DNA of 34,537 nt from Treponema sp. (GTDB taxonomy: Bacteria; Spirochaetota; Spirochaetia; Treponematales; Treponemataceae). Every line of letters starts with the position of its first letter. Within the stretch, counting starts at the first letter, position 1. Made by a program: the position numbers and the translations under genes. This document shows, in pieces, positions 5,506-27,709 of this stretch. The stretch is from contig JAEETM010000040.1 in assembly GCA_016290335.1 (NCBI GenBank), forward strand, positions 1 through 34,537, written 5' to 3'. Under the pieces are notes generated by a model that searched no databases, was not told the DNA's origin, and saw only the letters and a list, made by a program, of their open reading frames with translations.

Positions 5506-6051
5506 ATGATTAATGTATTTATTGATGAATTTACACCCTGCCTCAAAGACAATAAAACAGGTGAACTTGTACAAACAGAAGTTCTTCGCATTGGTCGAAA
5601 ATCTTTTTTGAAAAAATATAATGAGAAGAATGGCTGGTATGTTAATTGGGATGAGCTTCTTGATGAAAATGAAGTTTATGCTCTTGTTGTAGAAGGATCT
5701 GTAGATATTCAAGGTCTTGTTGCACTACATAGAGATGATTGTGCAAAAGCTGTGTATGTAACATGGATGTGTGCAAGTCCAGAAAATAATCACCAGATAA
5801 ATCAAGAAACAAGATATAAGGGTGTTGGTGGACATCTGTTTGCAATAGCTGCAAAAAAATCCATTGAATGGGGATTTGATGGTATGTTGTATGGCTTTGC
5901 CGCTGACAAAACTCTTCTTGAACACTATATGACGGTTTTTAATGCAGATTTTATAGGTATTCAACATCCATTTCACTTTCTAATTGATGAAGAAAATGCA
6001 AAAAAAATAACGGAGGTTTACACTTATGAATGGACAGATGACAAAATATAA
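5506..6051 (+). CDS. GNAT-family N-acetyltransferase
   Basis: This 181-aa protein is a putative acetyl-CoA-dependent acetyltransferase of unknown substrate. The acetyl-CoA pyrophosphate loop (motif A, R/Q-x-x-G-x-G/A) is seen as RYKGVGGHLFAIAAKKS (about residues 105-121). It is followed by a strand and helix typical of motif B (LLEHYMTVFNADFIG). The upstream strand VYVTWMCASPE carries the usual beta-4 position. A strong GAGGAGG site defines the start. Its last 26 bases overlap the next gene, whose ribosome site lies inside this coding sequence, so the two are translationally coupled. GNAT proteins paired with a small partner can be toxins, but most such toxins have an upstream ribbon-helix-helix antitoxin, which is not seen here. 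A toxin role is only a possibility. Confidence 0.7.
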   Translation: MINVFIDEFTPCLKDNKTGELVQTEVLRIGRKSFLKKYNEKNGWYVNWDELLDENEVYALVVEGSVDIQGLVALHRDDCAKAVYVTWMCASPENNHQINQETRYKGVGGHLFAIAAKKSIEWGFDGMLYGFAADKTLLEHYMTVFNADFIGIQHPFHFLIDEENAKKITEVYTYEWTDDKI

Positions 6052-6206
6052 GGAAAGCCTTTCCAAAACTCCAAAACCAATTCCTTTTAGCGAGATAAAA
6101 GGGACAATGGATTATCGGGGACTATTAGCCTATGCAAAATCGCAGGGGAAAAAAGTCTCGGAACTTACTCAAAAAGAAAAAATGAAGTTTTACATTGAGT
6201 AGAACT
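6004..6206 (+). repeat. 203-bp direct repeat, copy A
   Basis: It is 197/203 identical to 13461-13663. It contains the last 16 codons (with stop) of the acetyltransferase gene, the whole 58-aa gene, and the first bases of the converging protease gene's stop codon. All six differences fall inside the 58-aa frame. Confidence 0.95.
6026..6202 (+). CDS. 58-aa conserved small protein, copy A
   Basis: The product is a basic 58-residue protein. Its C-terminal half looks like one or two amphipathic helices (MDYRGLLAYAKSQGKKVSEL and then LTQKEKMKFYIE). The ribosome site CGGAGG at 6011-6016 lies 9 bases before the ATG, inside the upstream acetyltransferase gene, which it overlaps by 26 bases. A second copy at 13483-13659 differs by six bases, five of them synonymous and one Glu-to-Lys (residue 10). 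This pattern supports a real, selected protein. The family is not recognised. It may be the partner or antagonist of the acetyltransferase, but that is inference from coupling alone. Confidence 0.75.
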   Translation: MNGQMTKYKESLSKTPKPIPFSEIKGTMDYRGLLAYAKSQGKKVSELTQKEKMKFYIE

Positions 6207-7185
6207 ACAAGATATAAAAACGCATATTTTCAAAATCAAATTGAACTATATGATTTTCAAAAACGGGAAAACCTAATCCTGAATGTTCCTTATAATAATT
6301 CCTAACTTTATCTGAACATAAAAAGTTTCTGCTTACTGCATAGTAAAAAATTATATTGTTATATTCTAAAGAAGCAATTTTTAAACTTTCAATAATATTC
6401 ATATATATATCTTTATTATTTCCAGATGCCATAGATTCATAACTTTCGTTTTTGTTTTTCTGAAAATCCTGTCTGATTATGCAACAATTGAGCCCTGTAT
6501 CTAATAAACACCGTTCTATTTCATTATTTATAACACAATCAATATATAAAGATTTTCCGATTGGCTCGTCAATTAATATGATTGGGCTTCCTTCATTTGA
6601 AATAATATCAGTATTAAAATAAACTTCTTTTTCCTTATAATCGAAAACAATACTATTTAGTTGCAGAAAAAAATCTAATCCTAACACTCCATCATATTTG
6701 GTCTTTATATTTGAATAATTCAAATTAATTCTATAACTCTTATCATTTTGTATAAAGATAACAGGATATTTAGTATAGCTCATTCCTTTTCTTGCCATAT
6801 CCAAATACATTTTTTTTGCTTCGGAAAATGTATAATCTTTATTTGGATTTTTCATCATCAACTCATCAAGGAAAATCTTTATACTGTCATTTTCCCATTC
6901 TTGAAAATCATCAACAATTTTTTTCATTCCAGATTTGTGAATAAAAGAAGTTGCCGCGCCTGTATCACATTCAAAAGTAAGAAATGCATTATTTACTTTT
7001 ATAGAAATTACAGGAATCATACTTTTTTTTGTAGCGTAATTAAATGAGTAATATTTTTTAAGCAAAACGTTTTTAGGTTCACTTTCGGATGATATATCAC
7101 ATTCATTAGTTTTCATAAAATAGTTTGAAGAGCAACTGACTAAAAAAGTCAAAAAAACAATATCTACAAAGAAAAGTTTTTTCAT
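6205..7185 (-). CDS. Retropepsin-like aspartic protease, lipoprotein (two DTG motifs)
   Basis: This 326-aa protein begins with a lipoprotein signal (LVSC, acylated Cys18). It has two clan AA catalytic motifs: DTG at residues 74-76 (FECDTGAATSF) and DTG at 229-231 (CLLDTGLNCCI). The first half ends in DGVLGLDFF (165-173), the typical retropepsin beta-strand/helix that follows the flap. Two half-domains in one chain would allow a pepsin-like single-chain active site, unlike dimeric retroviral proteases. It is expected to be anchored in a membrane facing the periplasm or surface. An AAGGA site lies upstream. It is a tandem paralogue of the next gene upstream, 23 bp away. Its stop codon falls in repeat copy A. 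Confidence 0.75.
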   Translation of the reverse strand: MKKLFFVDIVFLTFLVSCSSNYFMKTNECDISSESEPKNVLLKKYYSFNYATKKSMIPVISIKVNNAFLTFECDTGAATSFIHKSGMKKIVDDFQEWENDSIKIFLDELMMKNPNKDYTFSEAKKMYLDMARKGMSYTKYPVIFIQNDKSYRINLNYSNIKTKYDGVLGLDFFLQLNSIVFDYKEKEVYFNTDIISNEGSPIILIDEPIGKSLYIDCVINNEIERCLLDTGLNCCIIRQDFQKNKNESYESMASGNNKDIYMNIIESLKIASLEYNNIIFYYAVSRNFLCSDKVRNYYKEHSGLGFPVFENHIVQFDFENMRFYIL

Positions 7186-7208
7186 TAATCAATATTCCTT
7201 AACAATTC

Positions 7209-8045
7209 TTAAAAAATCTCAAACTTTTTATTCACAAAATCAATTTTCAATTTATGATTTAAAAATAAATTAGCCCCCAGAATATTGTTGGCCACCATAA
7301 AATCTCGGGCAGGCTCGTTTACTTTCAAAGCAGGATTGGAAGTTCGGTAAATCTCAATATCATCATAGTTTTTATTTGAAAGGGATAATCCGCTTATCAT
7401 ACATTTTAAAACATCATCGTCATAATCATTATCAATAAAAAATTGATCATTAAATGCACTGCAGAAAGCACCTGTATCTATGACTCCTTCAAATACTTTT
7501 CCATACACTTCAAAATCACAATACAGATGGTTCTTATAAACATGAAAAGGCGTACCATTTTCCAGTTCAGAATCACAAAGTATTATTTCCTGATTTACAT
7601 AATCAAACGTTACCGTGCCAAAGGTATTTAAAAATGGAGTTCCCAAGAAACCATCAATCGGGGATTCATCCACATTTATCATGTATTTATCTTCTTTATC
7701 AAGATAGAACCTTATATTGTTTATAACCACATATTCTGAATCAATTGGAATATGATTTATCATCTTAGCTATGCCATTACTATTTAATTCATTTTTTATT
7801 GCACCGGTATCAACTAATAAAAACAAGTATTTATTATTCGCTTTCATTTTTACTACAGGGTTGTGTTCATGTGAAGGAAAATCAAGTATAAAAGGAAGTA
7901 CATTATCCATATCACTTTTTTTGAACCGTTTTGATATTCTATGAGTTTCTATTATTTCTGAATTATCTATGGCAAGATAAGCACCAAGGAAAATGATTGA
8001 GTATATTATAATAAATCTTAAAATCTCTTTTTTTAAATATGACAC
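7209..8045 (-). CDS. Retropepsin-like aspartic protease, membrane-anchored (two DTG motifs)
   Basis: This 278-aa protein has an N-terminal hydrophobic anchor or signal (residues 10-26, no lipobox Cys). It has DTG at 79-81 (FLLVDTGAIKN), the DGFLGTPFL strand at 131-139, and a second DTG at 190-192 (VIDTGAFCSAF). The organisation matches the neighbouring protease, so the two probably arose by duplication, although only the motifs and spacing are still similar. The start is a GTG with a weak, distant AAGGA, so the exact N-terminus is uncertain. Substrate unknown. The pair lies downstream of an omptin-like protease. Confidence 0.72.
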   Translation of the reverse strand: MSYLKKEILRFIIIYSIIFLGAYLAIDNSEIIETHRISKRFKKSDMDNVLPFILDFPSHEHNPVVKMKANNKYLFLLVDTGAIKNELNSNGIAKMINHIPIDSEYVVINNIRFYLDKEDKYMINVDESPIDGFLGTPFLNTFGTVTFDYVNQEIILCDSELENGTPFHVYKNHLYCDFEVYGKVFEGVIDTGAFCSAFNDQFFIDNDYDDDVLKCMISGLSLSNKNYDDIEIYRTSNPALKVNEPARDFMVANNILGANLFLNHKLKIDFVNKKFEIF

Positions 8046-8122
8046 AGTTAAGTATATCCTTGTGTATGTTATTATATCATATTATTTATACAAATTGAAT
8101 TACAAACCTCTCATTAAGTTTC

Positions 8123-9094
8123 TTATAAAATCATACAAATTCCCAAAGATATTAAGAAACCACATATTTTTATTCCCGCATTTACGTTATTTGAATTAAT
8201 AAAGCCCACAGAAGTAATTCCTATTTTCGAAGAAGATGTTTCTCCATAACAATTACAATTCTCATAAGAAATTGAATTTATTATCCCAATATTTTGTTGT
8301 CTTCTAAAAGGATATAGTATTCCCCAAAGTTCTATTTTTCCACCAATTCTACCATACATTTTATCATAGAATTGAGACATTCTTAAAAAATGGCTATCTA
8401 TTGTTGTTGCATTGATATAAGGATAATATTCAACTTTTAATCCAAATTTGAAATTTTCATATATATTTACAATTGTCTTGATTCCTATCAAAGGGAACCA
8501 CAATGCTTGTTCATATGAGATAACTATTCCTGCTAGTTTTGTTTGTTCTTCATCCCCAGTCCAAATCTCTCCATTTTCTATCGGATATTGCAAATATCCA
8601 CTTTGAGCAGTATATTTTGTATTCCTATATGAAAAACCCGTAAAAGGAATCAACTGCAAGTTTTCATGAATTTTTAGTTTATAACCAATTATTGTTTTAA
8701 TAGAATAGTTCTTATCTACATATACATCGTGTTCAGAAAAATGAGAAATAACATTTGGTATCCCAGTAAGATAATCAAAATCATTCATTTTTCCTGATTT
8801 TATCGGAATAGCAGATTCATATTCTATTCCCACAATTATTTCCATAAAACCAATTTCTGTAAAAGAAGATATTATCGGAATTGCTGGAACATTCCATTGT
8901 AACTGACTTATGATATTATCATTCTCATATACACTTTCATTTGTAACAGAAGACCTAATCCCAATGTCAGAAAGAAAACTCAATTGAAAACCTGAAATAC
9001 AAAAAAGACTTTTACATATCATCATCATAAAAAAAATTAAGAAATTCTTTTTTGCTAATAAAATAATAATTCTAGAACGCAATTTAAAAATCAT
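8123..9094 (-). CDS. Omptin-like outer-membrane aspartic protease
   Basis: This 323-aa protein has a long N-terminal hydrophobic signal region (to about residue 34), followed by alternating aromatic beta-strands as in a beta-barrel. It carries the omptin catalytic pattern: Asp105-x-Asp107 in MNDFDYL and Asp233-x-His235 in TIDSHFL. The 128-residue spacing from first to third Asp compares with 127 in OmpT (Asp83, Asp85, Asp210, His212). His122 sits where OmpT has His101, and the FSYRNTKYTAQSG segment resembles OmpT ESRYSFTARGG. Omptins cleave between basic residues at the cell surface. The gene starts 3 bases after the upstream lipoprotein stop, without its own clear ribosome site, so translation is probably coupled. 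Similarity outside the motifs is low. It could be an inactive or re-purposed barrel. Confidence 0.68.
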   Translation of the reverse strand: MIFKLRSRIIILLAKKNFLIFFMMMICKSLFCISGFQLSFLSDIGIRSSVTNESVYENDNIISQLQWNVPAIPIISSFTEIGFMEIIVGIEYESAIPIKSGKMNDFDYLTGIPNVISHFSEHDVYVDKNYSIKTIIGYKLKIHENLQLIPFTGFSYRNTKYTAQSGYLQYPIENGEIWTGDEEQTKLAGIVISYEQALWFPLIGIKTIVNIYENFKFGLKVEYYPYINATTIDSHFLRMSQFYDKMYGRIGGKIELWGILYPFRRQQNIGIINSISYENCNCYGETSSSKIGITSVGFINSNNVNAGIKICGFLISLGICMIL

Positions 9095-9097
9095 ATT

Positions 9098-9493
9098 TTA
9101 TGGTACCGTAAACTCCCCATAACCATAAGTTTCTTCAAAAGGAGAATCTAGCCATACAACAATCTTTTCTCCAGATTCAAAAAATGGAGAAACCTCACAT
9201 TCTGCAATAACGCCTATCGATACAAACAGTGTAGTAGTATAAGATACATTTTCTACTTTATGTGTTATTTTTGTTTCTTCATATTTTGTGTATTCATTAG
9301 AAACAATTATATAATCATCAGCTGGTAATCCACCATCGATTCCATATCCTGTACAGTAAATTTTAAAGTGAGTACTATCAATAAACTCTATCTTTTCAAC
9401 TTTTAATGGCTGTTTTGTATTTAGCAAAAGACACGATGAGAATATAAAAAAAAATAAAATTAATATCATTACAAACACAAATTTAGTTTTCAT
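9098..9493 (-). CDS. Small lipoprotein
   Basis: This 131-aa protein has a strongly hydrophobic signal ending FIFSSC (acylated Cys21). The remaining 110 residues are predicted beta-rich, possibly one Ig-like or beta-sandwich domain, and are not recognised as any family. A GGAAAG ribosome site is present. It lies between the 784-aa lipoprotein (22 bp upstream) and the omptin-like gene (3 bp downstream), so it is probably part of one operon. A role as partner or chaperone of the protease is a guess from position. Confidence 0.65.
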   Translation of the reverse strand: MKTKFVFVMILILFFFIFSSCLLLNTKQPLKVEKIEFIDSTHFKIYCTGYGIDGGLPADDYIIVSNEYTKYEETKITHKVENVSYTTTLFVSIGVIAECEVSPFFESGEKIVVWLDSPFEETYGYGEFTVP

Positions 9494-9515
9494 ATACGTT
9501 TTCTTTCCTAATTTA

Positions 9516-11870
9516 CTATAAAGTTAATGTCCATAAAGAATAATTCTTTTTCTCTTTTCGTAATTGGTTCGGTAATACAACATCATCTTTCTTTTCTATC
9601 TTAAAAGGTGTACCAGCAATACCTATATTTACACCATAAGCAGCTCTTAATTCCAGACCACCTCCAAAAATACAATAAAACTCTAAAGATTCTGGTGTAG
9701 TTAATGAATCATTAACATTAAGTTTTAATCCACAACCAATATCTAATGAAGGACCAATTTTTATTCCTCCATATAAACAATTTGCAACTGTTATTCCAGG
9801 TTCAAAATAAATATAAGGCCTGATACACATTTCTAAACTACTAGATTGTATCTTTACAAATGGAATAGTAGTTATTTCTGATACAGGTCCAACAAAACTC
9901 GCTGTTTTATTAATTACATTTCCCTTAACATATGGATAACAATAAATACCGGTTGGAATCGTTATCTTTAATTTCCATACCTTAATACTTTTTGTCTTAA
10001 CCCCATAATCAATCCCCATATCAAAGCCTGCAGCATAAAGACCTGTAAACCCTGCATAAAAAGATGTTGTTACTGTTCCCTTTAACGTAACACTTGCTGG
10101 TATTTCCAATCCACCACATAAAGAAAATTGTAATGTAACAACCCCTATAGTAATAGGTGGAGCATTAAGCATACTTAAATTTATATTAACAAGTTTTTCT
10201 TCAGCAGAACAACAAAGCTTTGGAATTTCTTCTGTTGGATACTTTGCTAATATCTTTGTCATTTCAAGACTAGTATCTGCAGAAATATACACTCCTGCAT
10301 AAATTCCTCCTTCAATATTTGAAAAGGTAATTTTAAAATGCCCCATTATCCCCAATGACAATTTTGCTTTGTTATCTATCTCTTTTGGAATGTTTGTTTT
10401 TGGTGAAGTTTTTAACACTTTTACAATTTCTTCAAAAGTCCCAGTTTTTCCCTTCAAATCTTTATTTTTTTCAGATTGTGATACAGATTCATTTACATCT
10501 CCTTGTAATTGTTGTATAAACTTTTTCCACCCAGGAAATGTATATGAACAATTCTTAATAGGATAAAAGCATTTAAACTCAGTATCAATATCCTTTTTTT
10601 GAGAAATATAATCACTATAATTATTTGCAGTTCCTATTGTTGATGCACTTCGTTGAATTTCACAATTCTCAAGTGTTTCACATTCTGGATTTGATATTAA
10701 AACACTGAGTAATGGAAAAATCGAAGCAATACTATTATTATTCAAACTAACATCAGGACAATAATCGGAGAAAAAGGTTTTTAATAAATATCTGTTAAAC
10801 TGAACAACATTTTCTTGAGTTGTGCAATCAAGGGTATTAATAAGATCTATTACTTCTGGCATATCAATTGGCAAATCATTTTCAATTGCAAGTTCTATTA
10901 TTAGATTACGTAATTCGAGAATCTTGTTTAATAAATCTATGCCAGAAATATCTACATCAATACTATTTATAATTGATTTAGGTAATACATTCAAAAATTC
11001 ATCAACTGCCATATAATCATCAAACTCTTCAGAATAAAAGTAATAATCTGTTTTTTTTATTTCTTCAGTTACATCTAATTCTTCATCTTCTATAGTTCTA
11101 GCATTTTTAAAAGATGTTTTATTAATTATTTTTTGGTATGTTCCTGTTATAGAATCCATCACATAATCACCATTTATTAGTCCTTGTACTACAGCTCTAT
11201 CTGTTGAATTAACCTCATATTTATTTACAATGAATTTTCCGTCTGGATTAATTCCCATTATCCCACTAGGATAAATACCCCTACTGTATTGTTCTGGCAA
11301 AATTGAAAACATCGATGTATTTCTTGTTTCTTGGTTACTTAAAAACGTTAACCATAATGCTTTTTCAAAAGAAGGTCTTTTTCTTAATGGATAATCATAT
11401 TTTAAATCATAATATCCATCAAAATTTATATCTATACACTCTCCTCTTCGTAAAATAAAAGAGTTTTGGAATTTAAATAATCCTGCTGTATCATAATAAA
11501 AGTAAGTAAAACAAATTTCATTCTCATTAATGAAATTTATCGTAATATATCCATATATAGCTGTATCCTCTTTATCTGTAAAGACAATTTCATCAGAATA
11601 AACTTCCCGACAAACAACTGTTCCCAATCGTACACCTATGTTTACACCATTTGCAAGTTGTCCTGTTGATGGATTTTCAGGATTATAGAGCACACTTCCA
11701 CCCATAAAAGCATTATGCTTCAAATTTTGAAAATTTAATTCATCACTAATATCTGTCAATTGGATTTCATTTTTACTTTGAAATGGGAAAGAACACCCTG
11801 AAAAAAATATCACACTTTCCATAATTATTGTTAACAAAATTACATTTCTAAAAAAAATGTTTTTTATCAT
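9516..11870 (-). CDS. Large lipoprotein of unknown function (784 aa)
   Basis: A signal ending FFSGC gives a lipoprotein. The start at 11870 is preferred over an ATG at 11882, because a GGAG ribosome site (11877-11880) overlaps that upstream ATG and is correctly spaced for 11870. The N-terminal 300 residues contain beta-rich segments on calcium- or adhesion-like acidic sequence. The middle is helical with several Cys (CETLENCEIQRS). The C-terminal 250 residues have repeated Gly/aromatic strands (e.g. IKIGPSLDIGCGLKLNV) reminiscent of a barrel or beta-prism. No family is recognised. It is the first gene of the minus-strand operon leading to the proteases, and a plausible substrate or surface partner of them (inference). 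Confidence 0.65.
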   Translation of the reverse strand: MIKNIFFRNVILLTIIMESVIFFSGCSFPFQSKNEIQLTDISDELNFQNLKHNAFMGGSVLYNPENPSTGQLANGVNIGVRLGTVVCREVYSDEIVFTDKEDTAIYGYITINFINENEICFTYFYYDTAGLFKFQNSFILRRGECIDINFDGYYDLKYDYPLRKRPSFEKALWLTFLSNQETRNTSMFSILPEQYSRGIYPSGIMGINPDGKFIVNKYEVNSTDRAVVQGLINGDYVMDSITGTYQKIINKTSFKNARTIEDEELDVTEEIKKTDYYFYSEEFDDYMAVDEFLNVLPKSIINSIDVDISGIDLLNKILELRNLIIELAIENDLPIDMPEVIDLINTLDCTTQENVVQFNRYLLKTFFSDYCPDVSLNNNSIASIFPLLSVLISNPECETLENCEIQRSASTIGTANNYSDYISQKKDIDTEFKCFYPIKNCSYTFPGWKKFIQQLQGDVNESVSQSEKNKDLKGKTGTFEEIVKVLKTSPKTNIPKEIDNKAKLSLGIMGHFKITFSNIEGGIYAGVYISADTSLEMTKILAKYPTEEIPKLCCSAEEKLVNINLSMLNAPPITIGVVTLQFSLCGGLEIPASVTLKGTVTTSFYAGFTGLYAAGFDMGIDYGVKTKSIKVWKLKITIPTGIYCYPYVKGNVINKTASFVGPVSEITTIPFVKIQSSSLEMCIRPYIYFEPGITVANCLYGGIKIGPSLDIGCGLKLNVNDSLTTPESLEFYCIFGGGLELRAAYGVNIGIAGTPFKIEKKDDVVLPNQLRKEKKNYSLWTLTL

Positions 11871-11943
11871 AAAGAACTCCATTTTTAGAATTAAATACTT
11901 GTCAATATTTTTTTATAACTTTACTTGTATCAAATAATAATTC

Positions 11944-11987
11944 AAGGTCATATTGAGTACAAAAAGGTCATATTAAGGTAATATGAC
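11944..11987. promoter_or_regulatory. Candidate operator: direct repeats and perfect palindrome
   Basis: AAGGTCATATT occurs twice (11944-11954 and 11964-11974), exactly 20 bp apart, about two helical turns. The second copy is also the left arm of a perfect palindrome: GTCATATT (11967-11974), a 5-bp spacer, and AATATGAC (11980-11987). It lies in the divergent region between the large lipoprotein and the 182-aa/membrane-HTH operon. Three half-sites on the same face of the helix suggest a cooperative regulator. The membrane-HTH protein is the obvious candidate but is unproven. Confidence 0.5.
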
Positions 11988-12040
11988 ATCTAGTAGTTGT
12001 CACACTCAATCGTAATTAATAATATTAAATCTATAGAAGT

Positions 12041-12081
12041 TTGTAACATTTAGTTTGAAAAAAAACTAAATGATGTTACAA
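12041..12081. promoter_or_regulatory. Long inverted repeat upstream of the 182-aa gene
   Basis: TTGTAACA plus TTTAGTTT (12041-12056) pair with AAACTAAA (12063-12070) and TGTTACAA (12074-12081), giving 16 pairs interrupted only by a 3-base bulge. A TATAAT box (12086-12091) follows directly, with no matching -35 because the repeat occupies that position. It may be an operator or activator site for the downstream operon. It also resembles a terminator (short T-run at 12082-12086). The ribosome site GAGGAG is at 12098-12103. Confidence 0.5.
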
Positions 12082-12110
12082 TTTTTATAATACAGACGAG
12101 GAGATAAAAA

Positions 12111-12659
12111 ATGAAGGATTCAAACCTTGCTTACAATTCAAACGAATGTTTCTGGAGCTTACCAGAATGGTCTTATCTTGTAAATGAGATTACAAAGGTT
12201 TTCAGGTTATCAAGCAAAGAAAAAGAAAAGCTTAACAATAGCATTACTGCAAGAATAATTGCTACTATACCTTTTGAAGCGAAATGTGAAGAACCAGAAA
12301 GAACTGCGATTGCTCATTTATGCCTTTATATGGCTGAATTAAAGGGATTTCAGAAATACTGTTCCCACCAGCCAAGTGATGATTCCAATCTTTTTAACCG
12401 ATTGGCTTTTATATCTACTTTCGAAGGTGGTAACCAAGAGATTATTAATCATGGGATGAATATTCTTGCCTTAATAATGCTTGAAGGTTATAAAAAATCT
12501 GAAAAAATAGATAGCGAAAACGGTACCTATAATCCTTTAGTTTCGAAGGCTTGGGATTATCAAACAGAAAAGAATAAATTAATTTGGGAAATAAATAAAA
12601 TTGAAGTACCTAATATTGATTGGGTTTTTAAATATATACCTTTCAATTATTGGCAATAA
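12111..12659 (+). CDS. Hypothetical 182-aa helical protein
   Basis: It is a soluble, mostly helical protein with no signal peptide or membrane segment and no recognised family. Aromatic residues at both ends (CFWSLPEWSYLV near the N-terminus, DWVFKYIPFNYW at the C-terminus) are notable. GAGGAG at the right distance supports the ATG. The stop is followed after 2 bases by the ATG of the membrane-HTH gene, so the two are almost certainly translated together. A partner or modulator of that regulator is a reasonable guess. Confidence 0.65.
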   Translation: MKDSNLAYNSNECFWSLPEWSYLVNEITKVFRLSSKEKEKLNNSITARIIATIPFEAKCEEPERTAIAHLCLYMAELKGFQKYCSHQPSDDSNLFNRLAFISTFEGGNQEIINHGMNILALIMLEGYKKSEKIDSENGTYNPLVSKAWDYQTEKNKLIWEINKIEVPNIDWVFKYIPFNYWQ

Positions 12660-12661
12660 TT

Positions 12662-13462
12662 ATGAACAGGCCTCTATACTCTCATAATGCATTAAAGGCA
12701 TTTCGTCTTTTTTCACTTATTGCTGTTATTATTTTATGTATTTCAAATACACGTATAATAACTTCGATTGGATTCCGAGATTTAATAGATGATACTTTTA
12801 AATTATTTACTTTTATTTGCAACTCTATTTCTATAGTTTTATTTTCCACTGTCATACTTTATCCATCTAAAATTGGCATCTGCTGTGCTATTGCGTTTAT
12901 TGACAGTGCAATCATTTTTATTTTTGAACCTAAAAATAATATGTCAATAATCCTGTATTTTTTAACAATAGCTTCTTTGTATGCACGCGGATTTTTCAAT
13001 AAAAATAAAAAAATCAAAAATATTATTGTATCTACACTTTATTTGGGGCTGATTCTTACAGAAATTAGATTTAAGGATGAAGATTTAATTACCATCTTCC
13101 TTGATAAAGCTGCATATACTTTTGTTCTTTTACTTTTTACATTTTTCATAAAGGCGTATTTGACAAATCAATTTGAAGCAATTGAATTACACCACAAGCT
13201 TGATATAAAAAAATATCAAAACCTTACAAAACGCGATGCTCAATGGCTGATTGATATTTTAAACCGTAAAAAATATCAAAGTATAGCAATTGATGAAAAA
13301 CTATCGATTGGAACTGTAAAGAACAGATTACGCTTTATTTTTGACGAGCTTTGTGTTGGCGACAAACAAGGCTTTATAAACACCTATTCCGATTTTGAAA
13401 TCTGTTACGGTGATGAATTGACAAACAAACCGGAAGAAAATCCCATCACGGACAATGCATAA
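12662..13462 (+). CDS. Integral-membrane HTH protein
   Basis: This 266-aa protein has about five hydrophobic segments in residues 15-165 (for example LFSLIAVIILCISN and AYTFVLLLFTFFIKAYL). A cytoplasmic C-terminal LuxR/sigma-4-like helix-turn-helix follows (about residues 190-235: KRDAQWLIDILNRK then LSIGTVKNRLRFIFDEL). It is probably a membrane-bound one-component sensor-regulator. The ATG at 12662 is preferred over an in-frame TTG at 12650 inside the previous gene. No good ribosome site is seen, so coupling is likely. The stop codon abuts repeat copy B. A fragment of a second copy of this gene is preserved at 5375-5440. It may control the divergent lipoprotein/protease operon. Confidence 0.7.
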   Translation: MNRPLYSHNALKAFRLFSLIAVIILCISNTRIITSIGFRDLIDDTFKLFTFICNSISIVLFSTVILYPSKIGICCAIAFIDSAIIFIFEPKNNMSIILYFLTIASLYARGFFNKNKKIKNIIVSTLYLGLILTEIRFKDEDLITIFLDKAAYTFVLLLFTFFIKAYLTNQFEAIELHHKLDIKKYQNLTKRDAQWLIDILNRKKYQSIAIDEKLSIGTVKNRLRFIFDELCVGDKQGFINTYSDFEICYGDELTNKPEENPITDNA

Positions 13463-13663
13463 AATAACGGAGGTTTACACTTATGAATGGACAGATGACA
13501 AAATATAAGAAAAGCCTTTCAAAAACTCCAAAACCAATTCCTTTTAGCGAGATAAAGGGGACAATGGATTATCGGGGACTGTTAGCCTATGCAAAATCGC
13601 AGGGGAAGAAAGTCTCGGAGCTTACTCAAAAAGAAAAAATGAAGTTTTACATTGAGTAGAACT
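13461..13663 (+). repeat. 203-bp direct repeat, copy B (includes acetyltransferase 3' relic)
   Basis: It is 197/203 identical to 6004-6206. Bases 13461-13508 still encode the last 15 residues of the acetyltransferase (KITEVYTYEWTDDKI) and its stop, but the rest of that gene is absent. The copy starts exactly at the stop codon of the membrane-HTH gene and ends about 23 bp before the leuB stop. Confidence 0.95.
13483..13659 (+). CDS. 58-aa conserved small protein, copy B
   Basis: It is identical to copy A except Lys for Glu at residue 10 (five other base changes are silent). The CGGAGG ribosome site is retained. Here the acetyltransferase partner is reduced to its last codons. The small gene instead follows the membrane-HTH gene, 20 bases after that stop. 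If the 58-aa protein is an antitoxin-like antagonist, this would be a solitary copy. Confidence 0.72.
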   Translation: MNGQMTKYKKSLSKTPKPIPFSEIKGTMDYRGLLAYAKSQGKKVSELTQKEKMKFYIE

Positions 13664-21291: not shown

Positions 21292-21319
21292 AAAAAAAAA
21301 CTCGCCAGATAGCGAGTTT
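21292..21319 (-). terminator. Terminator of tRNA-Glu
   Basis: On the minus strand AAACTCGC and GCGAGTTT (8 bp, 6-base loop) run into nine T residues. It sits about 34 bases after the tRNA-Glu 3' end. Confidence 0.85.
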
Positions 21320-21352
21320 ACCACGAACTGAACTGATTTTGAAATGATGTTT

Positions 21353-21425
21353 TAGCTCCTACGGGAGTCGAACCCGTCTCTCCGCCTTGAGAGGGCGATG
21401 AACTAAACCGATATTCGAAGGAGCC
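21353..21425 (-). tRNA. tRNA-Glu (anticodon CUC)
   Basis: It is a 73-nt cloverleaf on the minus strand. The acceptor is GGCTCCT / AGGAGCT (one G-U at the end). The D stem is GAAT / GTTC. The anticodon stem is TCGCC / GGCGG, with a 7-base loop CTCTCAA placing CTC at 34-36. The T stem is ACGGG / CCCGT with loop TTCGACT. CCA is not encoded. Confidence 0.9.
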
Positions 21426-21458
21426 AAAAAAAAAGCTGAACCTTAGGCGATTCAGCTT
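21426..21458 (-). terminator. Terminator of tRNA-Gln
   Basis: Minus-strand AAGCTGAA and TTCAGCTT form an 8-bp stem followed by nine T residues, immediately after tRNA-Gln and directly before tRNA-Glu. The two tRNAs may therefore be expressed separately or by read-through. Confidence 0.85.
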
Positions 21459-21461
21459 TAG

Positions 21462-21532
21462 TTCCCCAAGGAGGATTCGAACCCCCACAGTCAGAACCAG
21501 AATCTGAAGTGCTACCATTACACAATCGGGGA
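21462..21532 (-). tRNA. tRNA-Gln (anticodon CUG)
   Basis: It is a 71-nt cloverleaf. The acceptor is TCCCCGA / TTGGGGA, beginning with U1-A72 as usual for Gln tRNA. The anticodon stem is TCAGA / TCTGA with loop TTCTGGT, giving CTG at 34-36. The T arm is perfect, with TTCGAAT as loop. CCA is not encoded. It reads CAG codons. Confidence 0.9.
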
Positions 21533-21545
21533 ATAAGTGTATATA

Positions 21546-21574
21546 AATATATAGGAAAACAATAACTGTGTCAA
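21546..21574 (-). promoter_or_regulatory. Strong promoter for tRNA-Gln
   Basis: On the minus strand: consensus TTGACA at 21569-21574, a 17-bp spacer and TATATT at 21546-21551. The tRNA 5' end (21532) is about 14 bases after the -10 element. Confidence 0.8.
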
Positions 21575-21594
21575 CAGGTGTAATACTTATATAA

Positions 21595-21805
21595 GGAAAT
21601 CAATTTGTAAATAACTTAATCACAAAAAAATAGCTTCCGGTCGAGTAATGTCTTTCGAAATCGCAGGCTCGCCTGCTACACGCTGATGTGCCCTTGTAAT
21701 TATATACGTTTGCCGCTAAAGCGGCAGCACATCAGAGTGTTTTCGAAAGCCATTCCTCTCCCTCTCGCTATTTTTTTGAAAACACTTTAGTAAAAATTGA
21801 TTTCC
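21595..21805. repeat. 211-bp imperfect palindromic element (MITE-like or structured RNA)
   Basis: It begins GGAAATCAATTT and ends with the reverse complement. The arms (21595-21660 and 21739-21805) share several blocks, including CAAAAAAATAGC and TTTCGAAA. The centre has CTGATGTGC / GCACATCAG, plus two nested hairpins (GCAGG / CCTGC and TGCCGCT / AGCGGCA). The whole stretch would fold into one long branched stem. No target-site duplication is clear. It lies downstream of the CBM48 gene and upstream of the tRNA promoter. Confidence 0.6.
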
Positions 21806-21827
21806 AAAAATAATGCTGTATTAACAA

Positions 21828-22253
21828 CTATTTCTTTGTTGTTGTTTTCTTTGCGGGAGCCTTTTTGGCTGGGGCTTTTTCAGATTTAGCTGGAGCCTTT
21901 TTTGGAGCTGCTTTTTTGGCAGCGGGTTTGGAATCAGCGGGTACGTAGGTGCTGACTACGGAATTGTCGTCGTTTACGAGTTCGGCGCGGATGTATTTGT
22001 CGGCTTTCCAGTCGTTAATCCAGGTTTTGCCATCCAAAAGATAGCGGAACTGATATTCTTTGTTTACTTCAAACTGCTTTTTTACAGAAAAAGAACCGTC
22101 GGCTCCTTTCTTCATTGGGGTTGCTGTTTCGCTCCAATCGTTAAACTCACCTACTAAAAATGCCTTTTCTGCACCAGCGGCAGCAGCAGCGTTAATACTA
22201 AAAGTTACTGTACATTTTGTTTTATCTGATGAAAAAGTTTTCTTTAAGGACAT
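21828..22253 (-). CDS. CBM48 (glycogen-binding-like) protein with Lys/Ala/Pro tail
   Basis: It has 141 aa from the ATG at 22253, whose GGAGG ribosome site (22258-22262) overlaps a discarded upstream ATG at 22265. Residues of about 10-105 form a CBM48 / AMPK-beta-type carbohydrate-binding domain: KAFLVGEFNDWSETATPMK, EYQFRYLLDGKTWINDW. The last 35 residues are a basic AKKAPAK-type tail, like histone H1 or bacterial Hc1-like proteins. Expected to bind alpha-glucan, nucleic acid or both. It ends close to the palindromic element. Confidence 0.75.
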   Translation of the reverse strand: MSLKKTFSSDKTKCTVTFSINAAAAAGAEKAFLVGEFNDWSETATPMKKGADGSFSVKKQFEVNKEYQFRYLLDGKTWINDWKADKYIRAELVNDDNSVVSTYVPADSKPAAKKAAPKKAPAKSEKAPAKKAPAKKTTTKK

Positions 22254-22340
22254 ACTAACCTCCATTAAAATTAAGAAGATATTAACACTTTAAGGTTTTC
22301 TTAGCAAGTTATTATTTCAGACTTGATCCGACAATCTAAT

Positions 22341-23270
22341 TCACACATCCTCTAGTGTAAGATTGTAATTAAAGTTTTTATTTGCATAATTCAATGCAGT
22401 TTCCAAATAATCTCTTTTTAGAAGCTTTGCAAGAGAAAGTGCTGTCCGTATATATTTCTCACCTTCTGCTGTATTTCCTAATGATGAATAACTGCACCCC
22501 AAATTAAAGATTAGTCCCGGAAGCACACAAAGCTGCCCATATTTATTACAGATTTCAATCCCCTCTTTTTCAGTCTCAAGAGATTTTTGAAACATCTTTT
22601 TCTGACCATACCAGTTTGAAATATTGAACATTAAAACAGGAAGCAACGAAGCCTTATTTACCTCACTAACAAAAGTTTTATCCTTATAATAATGAATTAA
22701 AAACTCTAAATGCCGGAATGCATCTTTTTCTCTCTTGCATTCCCATTCACATAAAGCAATACAATTTATAATCTCCAATTCTTCATTTCTATAATAGCGG
22801 TCCTGTAGTTCACCTTCGGGAGTAAAATCCTTTAATGTCAATTGTAAAATAGATGTAAGTTCATCCAAATAATTTTGTTGATTCAGTAGACCTGAGTTTT
22901 CATAATCTAAAATTGTTTTTGCATGTAAATAATATTGTTTACTAAATACATCACTCTTATCATAATTCTTTTCATATTTGTCTAAAAGTTCATTATAATC
23001 ATATCGATGATTTGCAATTCTGTTATCAATCTCAACTTCTAAATTATGCAGCTTTAAATCCATTGCAGTCATAGGAATAAGATTCATAGGTGGTTTTGTT
23101 CCCATATAACTGAAAAAGGCTTCCAGCTGTTTCCTGCTTGGAAGATGCTTTCCATTTTCCAGCCTGGATAATGTTGAAACTGCACACGAATCTCCACATA
23201 AATCTTCCTGCGAAAGTCCTAATCGTTCTCTATATTCTTTTATGAGCTTACCTATTAATGAGCAGTTCAA
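22341..23270 (-). CDS. XRE-HTH plus TPR regulator (Rgg/PlcR, RRNPP-like)
   Basis: This 309-aa protein has an N-terminal HTH (residues 5-60: IGKLIKEYRERLGLSQEDLC, then STLSRLENGKHLPSRKQLEAF), matching the Rgg/MutR-type signature. A helical TPR-like region follows (about 100-300, e.g. GLIFNLGCSYSSLGNTAEGE). In Firmicutes this architecture senses small exported peptides. The start is a TTG, supported by AGGAG 7 bases upstream. It is divergent from the 75-aa exported peptide, with an inverted repeat between them. No peptide-binding residues can be identified from sequence alone. Confidence 0.7.
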   Translation of the reverse strand: MNCSLIGKLIKEYRERLGLSQEDLCGDSCAVSTLSRLENGKHLPSRKQLEAFFSYMGTKPPMNLIPMTAMDLKLHNLEVEIDNRIANHRYDYNELLDKYEKNYDKSDVFSKQYYLHAKTILDYENSGLLNQQNYLDELTSILQLTLKDFTPEGELQDRYYRNEELEIINCIALCEWECKREKDAFRHLEFLIHYYKDKTFVSEVNKASLLPVLMFNISNWYGQKKMFQKSLETEKEGIEICNKYGQLCVLPGLIFNLGCSYSSLGNTAEGEKYIRTALSLAKLLKRDYLETALNYANKNFNYNLTLEDV

Positions 23271-23315
23271 TTATTCACTCCTAATAATAGTTTGGTATAT
23301 TTTATCACATTTTTT

Positions 23316-23343
23316 GCGAAAAGTGAAAATTTGCACTTTTTGC
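23316..23343. promoter_or_regulatory. Inverted repeat between regulator and peptide gene
   Basis: GCGAAAAGTG (23316-23325), an 8-bp spacer and CACTTTTTGC (23334-23343); 9 of 10 positions pair. It is a plausible operator for the divergent XRE-TPR regulator. No clear -35/-10 pair was found for the peptide gene. Confidence 0.45.
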
Positions 23344-23403
23344 TATGGTGTTTTGCAAATTCCCAATTGAAAATTAAGTTTATCAAACGAAAGGAGAAAA
23401 GAA

Positions 23404-23631
23404 ATGAAAAAGACTTTCAAAATTATTGCATTTGTAATGGCATTGGGAATTGTTTCGAGTTTTACACTTTGTTGTAAACAGAATTCAATTACCGACATTT
23501 TATTGGATTCTCAGGATTCAAATGAAATATTGTATTCTGATGAAGATAATTCCAGACATTGCATTCCAGGCGAAAAAAAAAGAAGTAATCAAGGAGGTGG
23601 TACAGGCAATACAAGTACATTAGGCGGTTGA
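23404..23631 (+). CDS. 75-aa exported small peptide (pheromone or lipopeptide candidate)
   Basis: It has an N-terminal signal (MKKTFKIIAFVMALGIVSSF) ending near a CysCys pair (residues 23-24) that could be a relaxed spirochaetal lipobox. An acidic stretch and then a basic KKR at about 58-60 precede the Gly-rich tail RSNQGGGTGNTSTLGG. AGGAG supports the ATG. It has no recognised family. The position, divergent from an RRNPP-like regulator, suggests a processed signal peptide, but a small structural lipoprotein is equally possible. Confidence 0.55.
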   Translation: MKKTFKIIAFVMALGIVSSFTLCCKQNSITDILLDSQDSNEILYSDEDNSRHCIPGEKKRSNQGGGTGNTSTLGG

Positions 23632-23691
23632 TAATAAACCGTATAAAAGAGAGTTTATCAAAAAAAATTAAGTAATTAAAAGGGTATTGTA

Positions 23692-25326
23692 ATGAAAAAG
23701 ATTTGTAGAATTGTATTGGCATTGGTTGTAGCTGTAACATTGTTCGGATGCAAGGATGTTAATCAAAATATCTTACCAGAAAACACAGATAGTCCTAATA
23801 AACAGGTTGTAATTGGAGATGATGTCATTTACGGAGAAACATTTGATCTGCATTCGTTGTTTGAATCTGAAATACGAGCTGAAGGAATAGAAGAAGAAAA
23901 CCTTGTAGATATGGTATATTTCTCAGTTTGTCCGAGTAGCATTGAATCAGTTCATCAGGTTAATGATATTATGGGATATTTAAATCCAATTGAAATGAAT
24001 AAAAGAATTGAGCAGGCATGTGATGCAGAAAGCCTTATTTTTGATTCTGAAAAGGAACTTACTAAAGATGGTAATGTAAATGAATTAATCAGACTGAATA
24101 TAAAATATTATTATATAGTTCCAAAAGAAAAAGCCGAAAGTGTAAAAGATATTTTGGAAGCTTACGAAGTAATAGATGAATTCGCAATGCCAACAGAAGA
24201 ATTTATTGAAGAAACTCCATTGAAAAGTGAAAGATGGCCTTGGACTAAATATTCTGTATATGGAAAAATCTCTTACGAAATTGATGGTGTAACTTTACCA
24301 GCTTATGGAATTGAAATACAAAGATTAAACGGTTCGACGCGCCAAACAGATACAGAAGGAAATTTTAATTTTGGCTCGATAGCAAAATGTTGTCTTGTAT
24401 GGCTTTGGATAAATTATAATAATGAAGCCTGTTCGTTATCAAATATCGCAGGTCTAACAGCAACTAATCTAATTACAGTTGATTTTCCAAACAATTTGGG
24501 AAACTATAATTATACTGTATCTTCTAACTATACAGCTTCTAAACTTGCAATATGCAATGAACTTCTTACACGTTACAAATATGAAAAAGAAAATCACCAA
24601 AATGCTTATATTCCTAAAGTATCAGTATGGACAACACCACTTTTAGATGGAACCTGTTCTGCTCCATGCCTAAATATACTATGTGACAATAGATTGCCAG
24701 ATATTTTCATTTCCGGCTGTAAAGAATTCAATGAAAAAAACATAAACACAATCCAACACGAATACACTCATTTTATCCATTTCATATATGCCAATGATAA
24801 AAATGATTTCTGGGAAAAAATTGTATTATCCGAATTTCATAGTACTTTAAATGCAATACAAAGTGATATCAATTATTTCTTGAAAAATTTTACCACAAAA
24901 CAATCTATTTATGATTTTACAAATAAATACGTTTGTTTCGCAGAAAATCTTGCAGAATGGTATAGCTATGTTGGTAAAGCAAATAGTGCGTATGGTAAAA
25001 AAACAAGAAAAGATTCTGGTAACCAATATAATTACACAAGCGATAATGAAATTAGAGGTTTAGAATTAGGAATCAAAACTTATGAAAACACAAAAGTCTT
25101 TAAAAAACTGATGGAAACTGAAATTTGTACACGGATTTATAATAACAACAAAATAAATCTATTAACTCCAGTTAAACTTATGCAGCTTGTAGAAAAATAT
25201 GATATAATTACTTTTCAAGAATTATATGATGCACTTGTAAAAGAGTATCCTTCTTATAAAAAAGAAATACAAAACTGTTTTTCACAAGCTAATTACACAT
25301 CATACGGAAACAATATAGTATTCTAA
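23692..25326 (+). CDS. Zinc-metallopeptidase lipoprotein
   Basis: This 544-aa lipoprotein has a signal ending LFGC (acylated Cys20). Residues of about 185-250 resemble a carboxypeptidase-regulatory-like beta-sandwich (VYGKISYEIDGVTLPAYGIE, TDTEGNFNFGS). The catalytic motif HEYTH (in INTIQHEYTHFIHF) is the zincin HExxH signature. A downstream glutamate in CFAENLAEWYS fits the third zinc ligand of a gluzincin. The enzyme should act outside the cytoplasm. Only a weak ribosome site is seen (AGGG). It follows the 75-aa peptide gene by 60 bp. Confidence 0.72.
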   Translation: MKKICRIVLALVVAVTLFGCKDVNQNILPENTDSPNKQVVIGDDVIYGETFDLHSLFESEIRAEGIEEENLVDMVYFSVCPSSIESVHQVNDIMGYLNPIEMNKRIEQACDAESLIFDSEKELTKDGNVNELIRLNIKYYYIVPKEKAESVKDILEAYEVIDEFAMPTEEFIEETPLKSERWPWTKYSVYGKISYEIDGVTLPAYGIEIQRLNGSTRQTDTEGNFNFGSIAKCCLVWLWINYNNEACSLSNIAGLTATNLITVDFPNNLGNYNYTVSSNYTASKLAICNELLTRYKYEKENHQNAYIPKVSVWTTPLLDGTCSAPCLNILCDNRLPDIFISGCKEFNEKNINTIQHEYTHFIHFIYANDKNDFWEKIVLSEFHSTLNAIQSDINYFLKNFTTKQSIYDFTNKYVCFAENLAEWYSYVGKANSAYGKKTRKDSGNQYNYTSDNEIRGLELGIKTYENTKVFKKLMETEICTRIYNNNKINLLTPVKLMQLVEKYDIITFQELYDALVKEYPSYKKEIQNCFSQANYTSYGNNIVF

Positions 25327-25336
25327 ATATTTTTAC

Positions 25337-25361
25337 TGCGGCAAGAGAAAAGCTTGTCGCA
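25337..25361 (+). promoter_or_regulatory. Intercistronic hairpin after the metallopeptidase gene
   Basis: TGCGGCAAG and CTTGTCGCA pair over nine positions (one G-U), with a 7-base loop. No T-run follows on the plus strand, so RNA stability or processing is more likely than termination. Confidence 0.35.
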
Positions 25362-25382
25362 ATAAAAAAAGGAGCTAGTATT

Positions 25383-25931
25383 ATGAAAAAAATTTTATAT
25401 TTTTTTATTCTTTTCAATTCCATACTTTTTTCTTCCTGTAACCTTATTAATGCTATGATTCCAGGTACAAGACCTACAAATATTATTAGAGATTCTATTA
25501 CAGTTTCTCTTAGCCCAGAAAAAAAGAATCAAAGTTATAATTGGCAAACATCGATACATTATGAAGACCCTTACTCTGTAAATGATGAAATAACACTATC
25601 TGTTATTGGAAATCTAGATAAATCAATATATAAAGATGCAGTCATACAAATAGAGTTCCAAACTAAAAAAGCAACTGATGAGGACTTTTTATATCTCCCG
25701 AAAAATATAGAAGATGAAAAAGTATTATCTTTGACTTCGGAAACAAATAATCATAATTATGAAATATCTATACCCAAAGATAATCTTGATAACTTCGACA
25801 AAAAACTTACATTTACGATTCTAAAAGCAGGCAGTTATTTTATTGATGTTTATGTATATGCAAATGCACTAAAAACAAATGGAATAAATGGAAGATGTCA
25901 AAAAACTCTTTACTTTGACTGTTGCGAATGA
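25383..25931 (+). CDS. Tandem lipoprotein A
   Basis: This 182-aa lipoprotein has a signal ending LFSSC (acylated Cys19). The mature part is beta-rich, of unknown function. It is a close paralogue of the next gene: both have NAMIPGTRPTN-type and DSITVSL segments, and both end KTLYFDCCE. AAAGGAG precedes the ATG. It is probably exported to the membrane surface as part of the metallopeptidase operon. Confidence 0.7.
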   Translation: MKKILYFFILFNSILFSSCNLINAMIPGTRPTNIIRDSITVSLSPEKKNQSYNWQTSIHYEDPYSVNDEITLSVIGNLDKSIYKDAVIQIEFQTKKATDEDFLYLPKNIEDEKVLSLTSETNNHNYEISIPKDNLDNFDKKLTFTILKAGSYFIDVYVYANALKTNGINGRCQKTLYFDCCE

Positions 25932-25957
25932 TTACCTTGGTAATAATCAGGTCTTTT
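25911..25957 (+). repeat. Conserved 3' block of the tandem lipoprotein genes, copy 1
   Basis: It spans the last codons, the stop and 26 bases beyond. It matches 26563-26609 with two mismatches in 47. It contains GATTA / TAATC, a 5-bp stem followed by AGGTCTTTT, a weak terminator-like structure. Confidence 0.6.
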
Positions 25958-26031
25958 TCATCTGTTTTTAAGACAATTATGGTTGAAAATAGCAAAGTTT
26001 AGAGTGAAAATAAAAGAAGAAGATTTATTAT

Positions 26032-26583
26032 ATGAAAAAGTTAATACCTTTGTTCTTCATTACAAGTTGTATGTTTTTTTCTTCCTGCAGCCTTATTTCT
26101 GCAATGTTTCCCGGAACAAGGCCAACAAATAATATTGGTGATTCAATTACAGTCTCTCTTATTCCAGAAAAAAAGAATTATATAGATAATGACACGCAAC
26201 AAAAAAGAATACACTATGAAGAATCATATCCAATAGAAGAAGAAATAACACTTTCTATTTCAGGATGCATTGATAAAACAATTTATAGCGATGCAATTAT
26301 ACAAATTAGATTTGAGGATGATATAACAGCCGACGATGCTTTTGAAATTATAAATAGTTTTGATGATGATCCTTCATTCACTAGCATTTCAGAAACAAAA
26401 TACCATAAAATCGAAATATCAATATCTAAAGACAACCTTGATAAAATAGAAAAAAACATAACATTCAAAGTTCTAAGCAAGGGAAGCTATGATATTCGTG
26501 TTCATGTATATGCATACTCAAAAAAAACTAATGGATATGATGGATGGTGCAATAAAACTTTATACTTTGACTGTTGCGAATGA
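26032..26583 (+). CDS. Tandem lipoprotein B (paralogue of A)
   Basis: This 183-aa lipoprotein has a signal ending FFSSC (acylated Cys19). It is homologous to lipoprotein A throughout, strongest at both ends and most divergent in the middle. It was produced by tandem duplication that included the flanking DNA. The ribosome site is weak. Function unknown. Confidence 0.7.
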   Translation: MKKLIPLFFITSCMFFSSCSLISAMFPGTRPTNNIGDSITVSLIPEKKNYIDNDTQQKRIHYEESYPIEEEITLSISGCIDKTIYSDAIIQIRFEDDITADDAFEIINSFDDDPSFTSISETKYHKIEISISKDNLDKIEKNITFKVLSKGSYDIRVHVYAYSKKTNGYDGWCNKTLYFDCCE

Positions 26584-26609
26584 TTACCTTAGTCATAATC
26601 AGGTCTTTT
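26563..26609 (+). repeat. Conserved 3' block of the tandem lipoprotein genes, copy 2
   Basis: Second copy of the 47-bp block at 25911-25957, with the same conserved GATTA / TAATC stem after the stop codon. Confidence 0.6.
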
Positions 26610-26683
26610 GCAATTATTTTTGAGAAAATTAGATTGAAAATAATAAATATGAGAGAGAAAATAAAAGTGAGGAGATTTGTTAT

Positions 26684-27232
26684 ATGAAAAAGAAGTTTCT
26701 AATCATTGCTTTGCTGTTATCATCATTTGTTGTTTTTGCGGAAGGTGGATTCAATTTTAAAGTGGGTATTGATGCTGCAGCTTCCTTAAAGTTCAAGCCA
26801 TTTGTTGGTGCAAATCTTTCTTTTGATTACAGCTGGAAAAACGGATTTGGGCTTGGCTTAGGACTTAGAAATTATTGGAATATAAAACAGGACGAAATAG
26901 TGCCACAATCGGATATATATGAATCAAAGTTCATAGGTGGACTTTATAGTTTTATTAAATATAAATACTTCCAAACAGGTTTGGGATTATTATTAGTTGA
27001 AGGTGGTGCCTCGTTATATTTTAATATTGGAGGAGCAATTCCTGTTTGGGAGATGAAAAAGGGTAAGTTAGGAATTGATTTTGGAGCCGAATTATGGAAG
27101 ACAGCTGAACCAATTGAAGTAGCGTATGGACAGTCAAGTTCAGGAAATTATCCATCATCAACAAAAAACGAAAATAGTCCTCTGAATGATCTTAAGATTT
27201 ATGCAGGAGTGACGTATTTCCTGCCGTTTTAA
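26684..27232 (+). CDS. Small outer-membrane beta-barrel-like protein
   Basis: This 182-aa protein has a cleavable signal (MKKKFLIIALLLSSFVVFAE). Alternating aromatic and small residues follow (e.g. FGLGLGLRNYWN, FQTGLGLLLVEGGASLYF), and the last strand ends in Phe (VTYFLPF), as outer-membrane barrels do. GAGGAG supports the start. It is last in the peptide-metallopeptidase-lipoprotein run. Confidence 0.65.
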   Translation: MKKKFLIIALLLSSFVVFAEGGFNFKVGIDAAASLKFKPFVGANLSFDYSWKNGFGLGLGLRNYWNIKQDEIVPQSDIYESKFIGGLYSFIKYKYFQTGLGLLLVEGGASLYFNIGGAIPVWEMKKGKLGIDFGAELWKTAEPIEVAYGQSSSGNYPSSTKNENSPLNDLKIYAGVTYFLPF

Positions 27233-27289
27233 TGGTTTGTATCAATAATAATATAGCTTATTCTGGTCGAAAAATTACTTCAAGAAAAA

Positions 27290-27709
27290 CTACAAAAGAA
27301 AAGTCATATAATAAGGCACTGTTATTATATTATTTACAACCCCAATATTATTTTCAGATAGTTTGTAGCAAACATTTACATCATATTGAGGATTCTTCAA
27401 AACTGTTTTTGCTGATTTTGTATTTCCTGTAGTAGCCTTAACTTCAATCAGAGAAATCTCATTATTAACTTTTGAAACAAAATCTATTTCAAGTCCGGAA
27501 TCCTGCATGTAAACCTTAAATATATTATCTATTTTATTACCTTCGAGAGGATCGGAAATATTATTAAGATTGTGACATAGATTGATGATTCCAAAATCAT
27601 CTCTATATTCTTCAATAATGTCATGCTGCTCCTGATAAACTATATTCATATCATTTGTTGAAATAAATCTGTCAACAATATATGGAAGTCCGCCAACACA
27701 TTTTTCCAA
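27290..27709 (-). pseudogene. Decayed DUF4143-type ATPase fragment
   Basis: A 139-aa frame beginning at a TTG (no ribosome site, open further upstream into mutS2) carries a piece like the C-terminal DUF4143 / PD-(D/E)XK region of P-loop ATPases (GGLPYIVDRFI, then EIDFVSKVNNEISLIEVKAT). The ATPase domain is absent, and the segment between these blocks looks shortened. It is probably a relic of a larger gene in the same direction as mutS2. Confidence 0.6.

Follow-up and report, generated by a model that had tools for sequence, protein, structure and literature searches.

We describe here a three-gene module in a stretch of 34,537 nucleotides of Treponema sp. (the window; positions 1 to 34,537 of contig JAEETM010000040.1, assembly GCA_016290335.1) and consider it somewhat probable that the three genes serve peptide signalling of a PlcR-like, RRNPP type in this Treponema-like spirochete. 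A regulator with an XRE-type helix-turn-helix (HTH) and a predicted tetratricopeptide repeat (TPR) part lies divergent from a 75-aa lipoprotein, which is followed by a putative metallopeptidase lipoprotein; all three open reading frames (ORFs) are found where an initial annotation had placed them. The regulator belongs to a PlcR-type receptor family that is paired non-randomly with small tailed lipoproteins, is recurrently linked to HExxH lipoproteins and is akin to regulators of Bacillota, and the 75-aa family carries a variable segment after an invariant arginine. That a peptide is processed, imported and bound, that targets are controlled and that the peptidase is active is our inference. 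So far, RRNPP signalling has been described for Firmicutes and their mobile elements, and the large survey covered Firmicutes and virus genomes, according to the accessible part of its text (PMC10075063). Such a circuit had been called unfamiliar in spirochetes, and our literature search, with a coverage that left out preprints and most subscription papers, indeed gave no RRNPP system for Treponema or any other spirochete, and none for Lachnospiraceae. The accessible parts of PMC10075063, PMC9765709, PMC12700828, PMC5131891, PMC10838665 and PMC13220807 name no spirochete RRNPP system either. If the reading is true, a working spirochete copy would mean that RRNPP signalling crosses to cells with two membranes, and would pose the question how a signal borne by a lipoprotein leaves, passes the outer membrane and comes back. 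Treponema of rumen and gut would moreover have a way of sensing cell density that is coupled to secreted proteases and whose predicted peptides could be made synthetically.

The regulator and the small lipoprotein

The regulator (309 aa, minus strand, 22341-23270) starts with TTG downstream of an AGGAG ribosome-binding site (RBS) at 23278-23282. Its HTH (residues 6-60, 23091-23255, minus strand) lies above the Pfam cut-off, and this half of the XRE-HTH plus TPR architecture claimed earlier holds at the sequence level. The TPR half stays below the cut-off by sequence, with TPR_8 as best match (6.8e-5 for the single protein, against Pfam and NCBIfam rather than the TPR library of RRNPP_detector, which demands a hidden Markov model match at E < 1e-5), while the structural model is an all-helical repeat with a predicted local distance difference test score (pLDDT) of 91.8. 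Both profile comparison and Foldseek fold comparison match the regulator to PlcR over its full length; in sequence searches of solved structures, PlcR was missed when the single protein was the query and was reached with profiles only. Profile and modelled fold support its assignment as a PlcR/RRNPP-like protein, in line with the type proposed initially. Size and HTH plus TPR architecture also fit RRNPP(A) receptors, given in the accessible text of PMC10075063 as HTH plus TPR proteins of 250-500 aa. Among seven close homologs residues 1-60 are least variable (mean pairwise difference 0.07, compared to 0.18-0.48 in the TPR helices). Asn169 and Asn216, kept in 27/36 and 28/36 sequences, align with Asn159 and Asn201 of PlcR, which we take to touch PapR. 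For ComR, bonding of Asn to the peptide backbone is stated in the accessible part of PMC5131891.

The 75-aa ORF (plus strand, 23404-23631) has an ATG start and an AGGAG at 23392-23396, and is separated from the regulator by a divergent promoter region of 133 bp (23271-23403). Distance, RBS and lipobox agree with what is expected of an RRNPP(A) neighbour, namely an ORF of 10-100 aa with RBS and export signal at -60 to 400 bp, RRNPP_detector accepting lipoprotein signals at its relaxed level only. The ORF is more than a chance frame, since eight homologous protein clusters (72-99% identity) exist and only 4 of 870 shuffled regulator flanks hold a strict small lipoprotein (a lipobox ORF of at most 90 aa with ATG, RBS and hydrophobic signal within 400 bp of a regulator). 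A signal peptide (23404-23472) leads to the lipobox, recognized by eye and by a simple pattern, which ends at Cys24 (23473-23475). Cys24 is invariant in all nine aligned sequences, hence we regard the product as a lipoprotein; the exported peptide of the initial annotation keeps its export signal and loses its status as a plain peptide. An acidic tether (residues 25-50, 23476-23553), Arg51 (23554-23556), a variable segment (residues 52-61, 23557-23586) that we propose as the signal and a conserved Gly-rich tail (residues 62-75, 23587-23628) complete the protein. Arg51 is likewise invariant, as are 11 of the 14 tail residues. A basic KKR site had been suggested as processing point and can be discarded, since it is found in one of the nine sequences; judged from the alignment, Arg51, which directly precedes the variable segment, is a likelier one.

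Across the nine rows the mean pairwise difference is 0.156 for residues 1-23, 0.151 for the tether, 0.436 for residues 52-61 and 0.048 for the tail. A ten-residue variability peak of this kind was reached in 80 of 20000 column permutations, an eight- or nine-residue peak in 292 and 339. Three segment types occur: HCIPGEKK (3/9, including the window sequence), YCYPDGSK or YCYPNGSK (5/9) and HIITGGEQ (1/9). P0043 carries the first type on a tether that resembles that of P0048, itself of the second type, as if segments had been swapped. Eight of these sequences are database entries without genomic context. When 196 genomes of the genus were searched with the 75-aa subfamily, 12 weak matches appeared (E 1.5e-4 to 0.007), none of which extends to the tail and 11 of which lie within frames of 179-590 aa; thus, protein clusters that lack genomic context are the basis of the pherotype result.

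Within the divergent region, an imperfect palindrome (23316-23343) is a candidate operator, although a consensus scan calls the stretch terminator-like. The closest relative of the regulator (L001/L054, 71% identity) is divergent from a different lipoprotein of 193 aa, and the L001 promoter keeps 30 identical bases (23326-23355), a candidate promoter or operator, without keeping the right arm of the palindrome.

Recurrence and kinship

We searched 200 genomes from the genus that includes G001, in which L001 lies. Matches to the regulator at E 1e-3 occur in 95, many of them HTH-only pieces, and in 25 genomes, by our own count, a match reaches at least 1e-40. Fetched neighbourhoods, two further loci and the window gave 45 regulator ORFs of at least 250 aa in 37 loci. 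A strict small lipoprotein lies near 16 of the 45 (16/40 after removal of some close relatives), compared to 6 of 184 other ORFs of at least 150 aa in the same loci (one-sided Fisher 1.3e-8) and 1 of 70 ORFs of 250-400 aa; a wider, earlier count gave 17/45 regulators and 9/144 controls. The loci are related and these counts hence not fully independent; they include L083, a 51-aa ORF without the tether and Arg plan, and the wider one also L069 (109 aa). The regulator is thus paired with a small exported ORF far above controls.

For comparisons between partners we used 17 pairs, leaving out L083 and L069 and adding by hand L067 and L078, the latter with a TTG start. The lipoprotein lies downstream on the same strand in 13 pairs, divergent in two (window, L064) and convergent in two (L068, L078). 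With L063 the set comprises 18 small lipoproteins. Net charge from the Cys to the first Arg is -3 to -10, and the distances up to the first basic residue add up to a total that 5 of 20000 shuffles reached, a statistic that is somewhat inflated, as the Cys of the lipobox was probably set too close to the N-terminus in L074, L077 and L079. Similarity of the regulator TPR parts correlates with that of the tails (Mantel r 0.40, P 0.0006; 17 pairs).

The putative zinc peptidase is a 544-aa lipoprotein (plus strand, 23692-25326). Its model contains an N-terminal domain (~37-178), which could be a prodomain, and a thermolysin-like catalytic domain (~190-544) with the HExxH motif HEYTH (residues 356-360, 24757-24771), while no Pfam family, M4 thermolysin included, matched at E up to 1. 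The metallopeptidase lipoprotein named in the initial annotation is accordingly kept as a putative one, whose proteolytic activity is suggested by the modelled fold. Arg181 (24232-24234), invariant in 26/26 rows, lies in a low-confidence stretch of the model between the two domains and is a possible maturation site. In the metallopeptidases of the window (24232-24234), L062, L064 and L003 an acidic inter-domain stretch ends in Ser/Ala-Arg or Ser-Glu-Arg, resembling the tether and Arg of the small lipoproteins; a Lys-rich stretch comes next in some relatives. Judged by this likeness, a single protease may process both kinds of protein. The trio of regulator, small lipoprotein and peptidase is present in four loci in two arrangements. 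At L067 (7982-9224) regulator and 63-aa lipoprotein are followed by a 336-aa ORF whose start, LTYDELLKVNGG, resembles a double-glycine leader, with HETHH further on. At L072 (3344-6522) a ThiF-like ORF, a ClpA-like ATPase and ORFs that by eye are transporter-like adjoin the regulator, possibly a modified-peptide cluster.

Outside the genus, a phylum sample of 296 genomes gave G001 itself as the sole match at E 1e-20, and in the family of the L005 genome the regulator was found at this threshold in 25 of 200 genomes. Of 40 Bacillota regulator rows, 19 have a small exported ORF close by, which is convergent at the 3' end in 18 of the 19; after allowing for duplicates (L125=L005, L150=L134, L152=L133) there are 15 distinct convergent cases. 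The criteria of this count, which had no control set, were less strict than those for Treponema (25-110 aa with ATG, RBS and signal at up to 500 bp, and no lipobox required). L005-L010 have such an ORF in 6/6 cases with any start codon and in 5/6 with ATG. At L010 (11554-13390, Lachnospiraceae) a radical-SAM-like ORF, with CxxxCxxC seen by eye, adjoins the regulator and its small exported ORF. Regulator ORFs of L133, L134, L136, L139 and L140 are ~610-655 aa long and match the family profile twice per frame, as if two HTH-TPR units had been fused. A tree built from 44 Treponema and 26 Bacillota rows sets the Treponema sequences on one side of a branch (support 97/95; 96% of 200 bootstraps), and midpoint rooting, with the true root not established, places them within Bacillota. 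The family was probably gained from gut Bacillota, and a single gain would be the simplest reading of the tree. A phage or plasmid origin was dropped: no relative was confirmed in viral contigs, the only plasmid match is distant (25% identity, Priestia), and PHROGs gave only weak regulator matches (best 2.8e-7).

The module stands in a stretch (22341-27700) with a guanine-cytosine (GC) content of 0.302, compared to 0.405-0.429 in three other parts of the window, that holds many lipoproteins. Behind the peptidase follow lipoproteins of 182 aa (plus strand, 25383-25931) and 183 aa (plus strand, 26032-26583), alike by eye and possibly of the same operon. Genes for tRNA-Glu and tRNA-Gln lie nearby (21352-21532), and Rfam at gathering threshold gave no match other than these two over 21300-27400. 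The closest relatives that bear a name are records of Treponema or Spirochaetaceae, several of rumen origin. A second low-GC island (5500-13500, GC 0.288) has two ORFs (6205-7185, 7209-8045) in which DTGA motifs like those of aspartyl proteases were seen by eye. It also encodes a lipoprotein of 788 aa (9516-11882) that shares 27% identity (1e-28) with a lipoprotein adjoining the regulator and small lipoprotein of L002. At 12111-13462 the island has an ORF of 182 aa and a gene for a membrane protein whose C-terminus looks HTH-like by eye; homologs of this pair (61%, 29%) are divergent from a metallopeptidase in L113 and a similar pair occurs in L118, so that the two may form a further regulator pair with output of the same kind.

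Proposed mechanism and rival explanations

The observation made in the initial annotation is confirmed, and its interpretation is partly supported. More tentatively than the module itself, and as a possibility we do not favour outright, we propose a pheromone system of a two-membrane spirochete, in which a PlcR-type family would have been gained once from gut Bacillota and diversified in Treponema, the signal source would be the tail of a tiny lipoprotein, cut after the Arg that ends its acidic tether, in place of a classical exported peptide, pherotypes would be swappable and secreted lipoproteases would be controlled. In the signalling module itself, the 75-aa pre-prolipoprotein would be exported and, as its lipobox suggests, lipidated at Cys24, and the acidic tether would hold the C-terminal tail beyond the inner membrane, possibly on the cell surface. 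Proteolytic cleavage might take place behind Arg51, with a possible second cut near residue 59, and yield a short peptide with the variable segment. An oligopeptide permease, for which binding proteins exist in relatives, could import this peptide, and the TPR groove of the regulator could bind it, as modelled fold and Asn positions suggest. The regulator would then alter transcription at the divergent promoter, judged from the gene arrangement, and with it the output of small lipoprotein and lipoprotease, possibly also of the lipoproteins behind them.

Several results weigh against this reading. No strict small lipoprotein lies within 400 bp of 29 of the 45 regulators, including L001/L054, although in two of these, L067 and L078, a small lipoprotein is present that fails the RBS filter. 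The signal peptide route by signal peptidase II (SPII) is that of a minority of RRNPPA propeptides (211/2,734, in the accessible part of PMC9765709), and a released peptide has the outer membrane to cross as well. The first basic residue is Arg in 13 of the 18 small lipoproteins without enrichment over Lys (P 0.62), and a dedicated Arg cut is hence unsupported by residue preference. Regulator similarity correlates with signal peptides too (r 0.34, P 0.0045; 17 pairs), so that co-inheritance is all that can be read from the tail correlation and a tail-specific coevolution is inseparable from it. SBP_bac_5 proteins occur in 12/12 regulator genomes searched and also, unspecifically, in 11/14 control genomes, and so show no more than that peptides could be imported. 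The peptidase family is also found with no regulator nearby, and the link of regulator and protease is therefore recurrent rather than obligate. As a proven operator the palindrome is unsupported: its core score was equalled by 78 of 500 shuffles, and the window holds no other exact site and four at up to three mismatches, compared to 5.75 expected. The PlcR box has no match within two mismatches in 23271-23403. Over the window nine matches compare to 4.97 expected (5 of 100 shuffles reach nine), and one with a single mismatch (25382-25399) overlaps a start codon.

An unlikely alternative, though the strongest, is that the regulator is a true peptide receptor whose ligand comes from diet, host or other bacteria, the small lipoprotein and the lipoprotease being merely targets. 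The 29 regulators above agree with it, as do three regulators that adjoin oligopeptide permease genes and lack a small lipoprotein, the peptidases that adjoin regulators in several loci and the 30 bp that L001 retains with another lipoprotein; however, a plain target would not be expected to carry a pherotype-like segment, 15 of the 16 adjoining tiny tailed lipoproteins share one plan, and a small exported ORF, in most cases 3' convergent, is frequent near the regulators of the Bacillota relatives. Improbable is that the small lipoprotein acts in competition, as a bacteriocin-like or surface-acting effector or as an immunity factor, under a dedicated HTH-TPR repressor that senses something else. 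Most tails are by eye Gly/Ser-rich or short and not cationic helices, even if they vary between relatives and that of L080 is a long cationic stretch; the regulators of L072 and L010 do lie near ThiF-like or radical-SAM-like genes, yet the receptor is closest to pheromone receptors and no recurrent export or immunity partner was seen, with no systematic search made. Slightly less probable still is a chance neighbourhood, in which the HTH-TPR protein regulates protein partners and the lipoproteins next to it are unrelated. The low-GC, lipoprotein-rich setting near tRNA genes and the second island would allow this, but the pairing is enriched over control ORFs of these loci and the trio is found in four loci and two arrangements.

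Known systems

The peptide-signalling module that we favour resembles PlcR-PapR of the Bacillus cereus group in the full-length profile and fold match of the receptor, the aligned Asn positions, the small exported partner adjoining it and the protease neighbour. Differences are the spirochete host, a partner that is an SPII lipoprotein with a long acidic tether, the divergent gene order and a promoter without PlcR box. NprR-NprX with neutral protease in Bacillus counts among the closest known systems as well. Rgg-SHP and ComR-ComS share the XRE-HTH plus TPR receptor and the small peptide gene, and are high on the Foldseek list; however, their profile match to the regulator is weaker and mainly in the HTH, and their propeptides are shorter, more hydrophobic and exported by another route (PMC9765709, accessible part). 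HTH-TPR regulators of Lachnospiraceae and Oscillospiraceae are relatives at 22-30% identity that likewise have a paired small ORF, in contrast mostly 3' convergent, and some of them are apparently fused doubles of ~600-700 aa.
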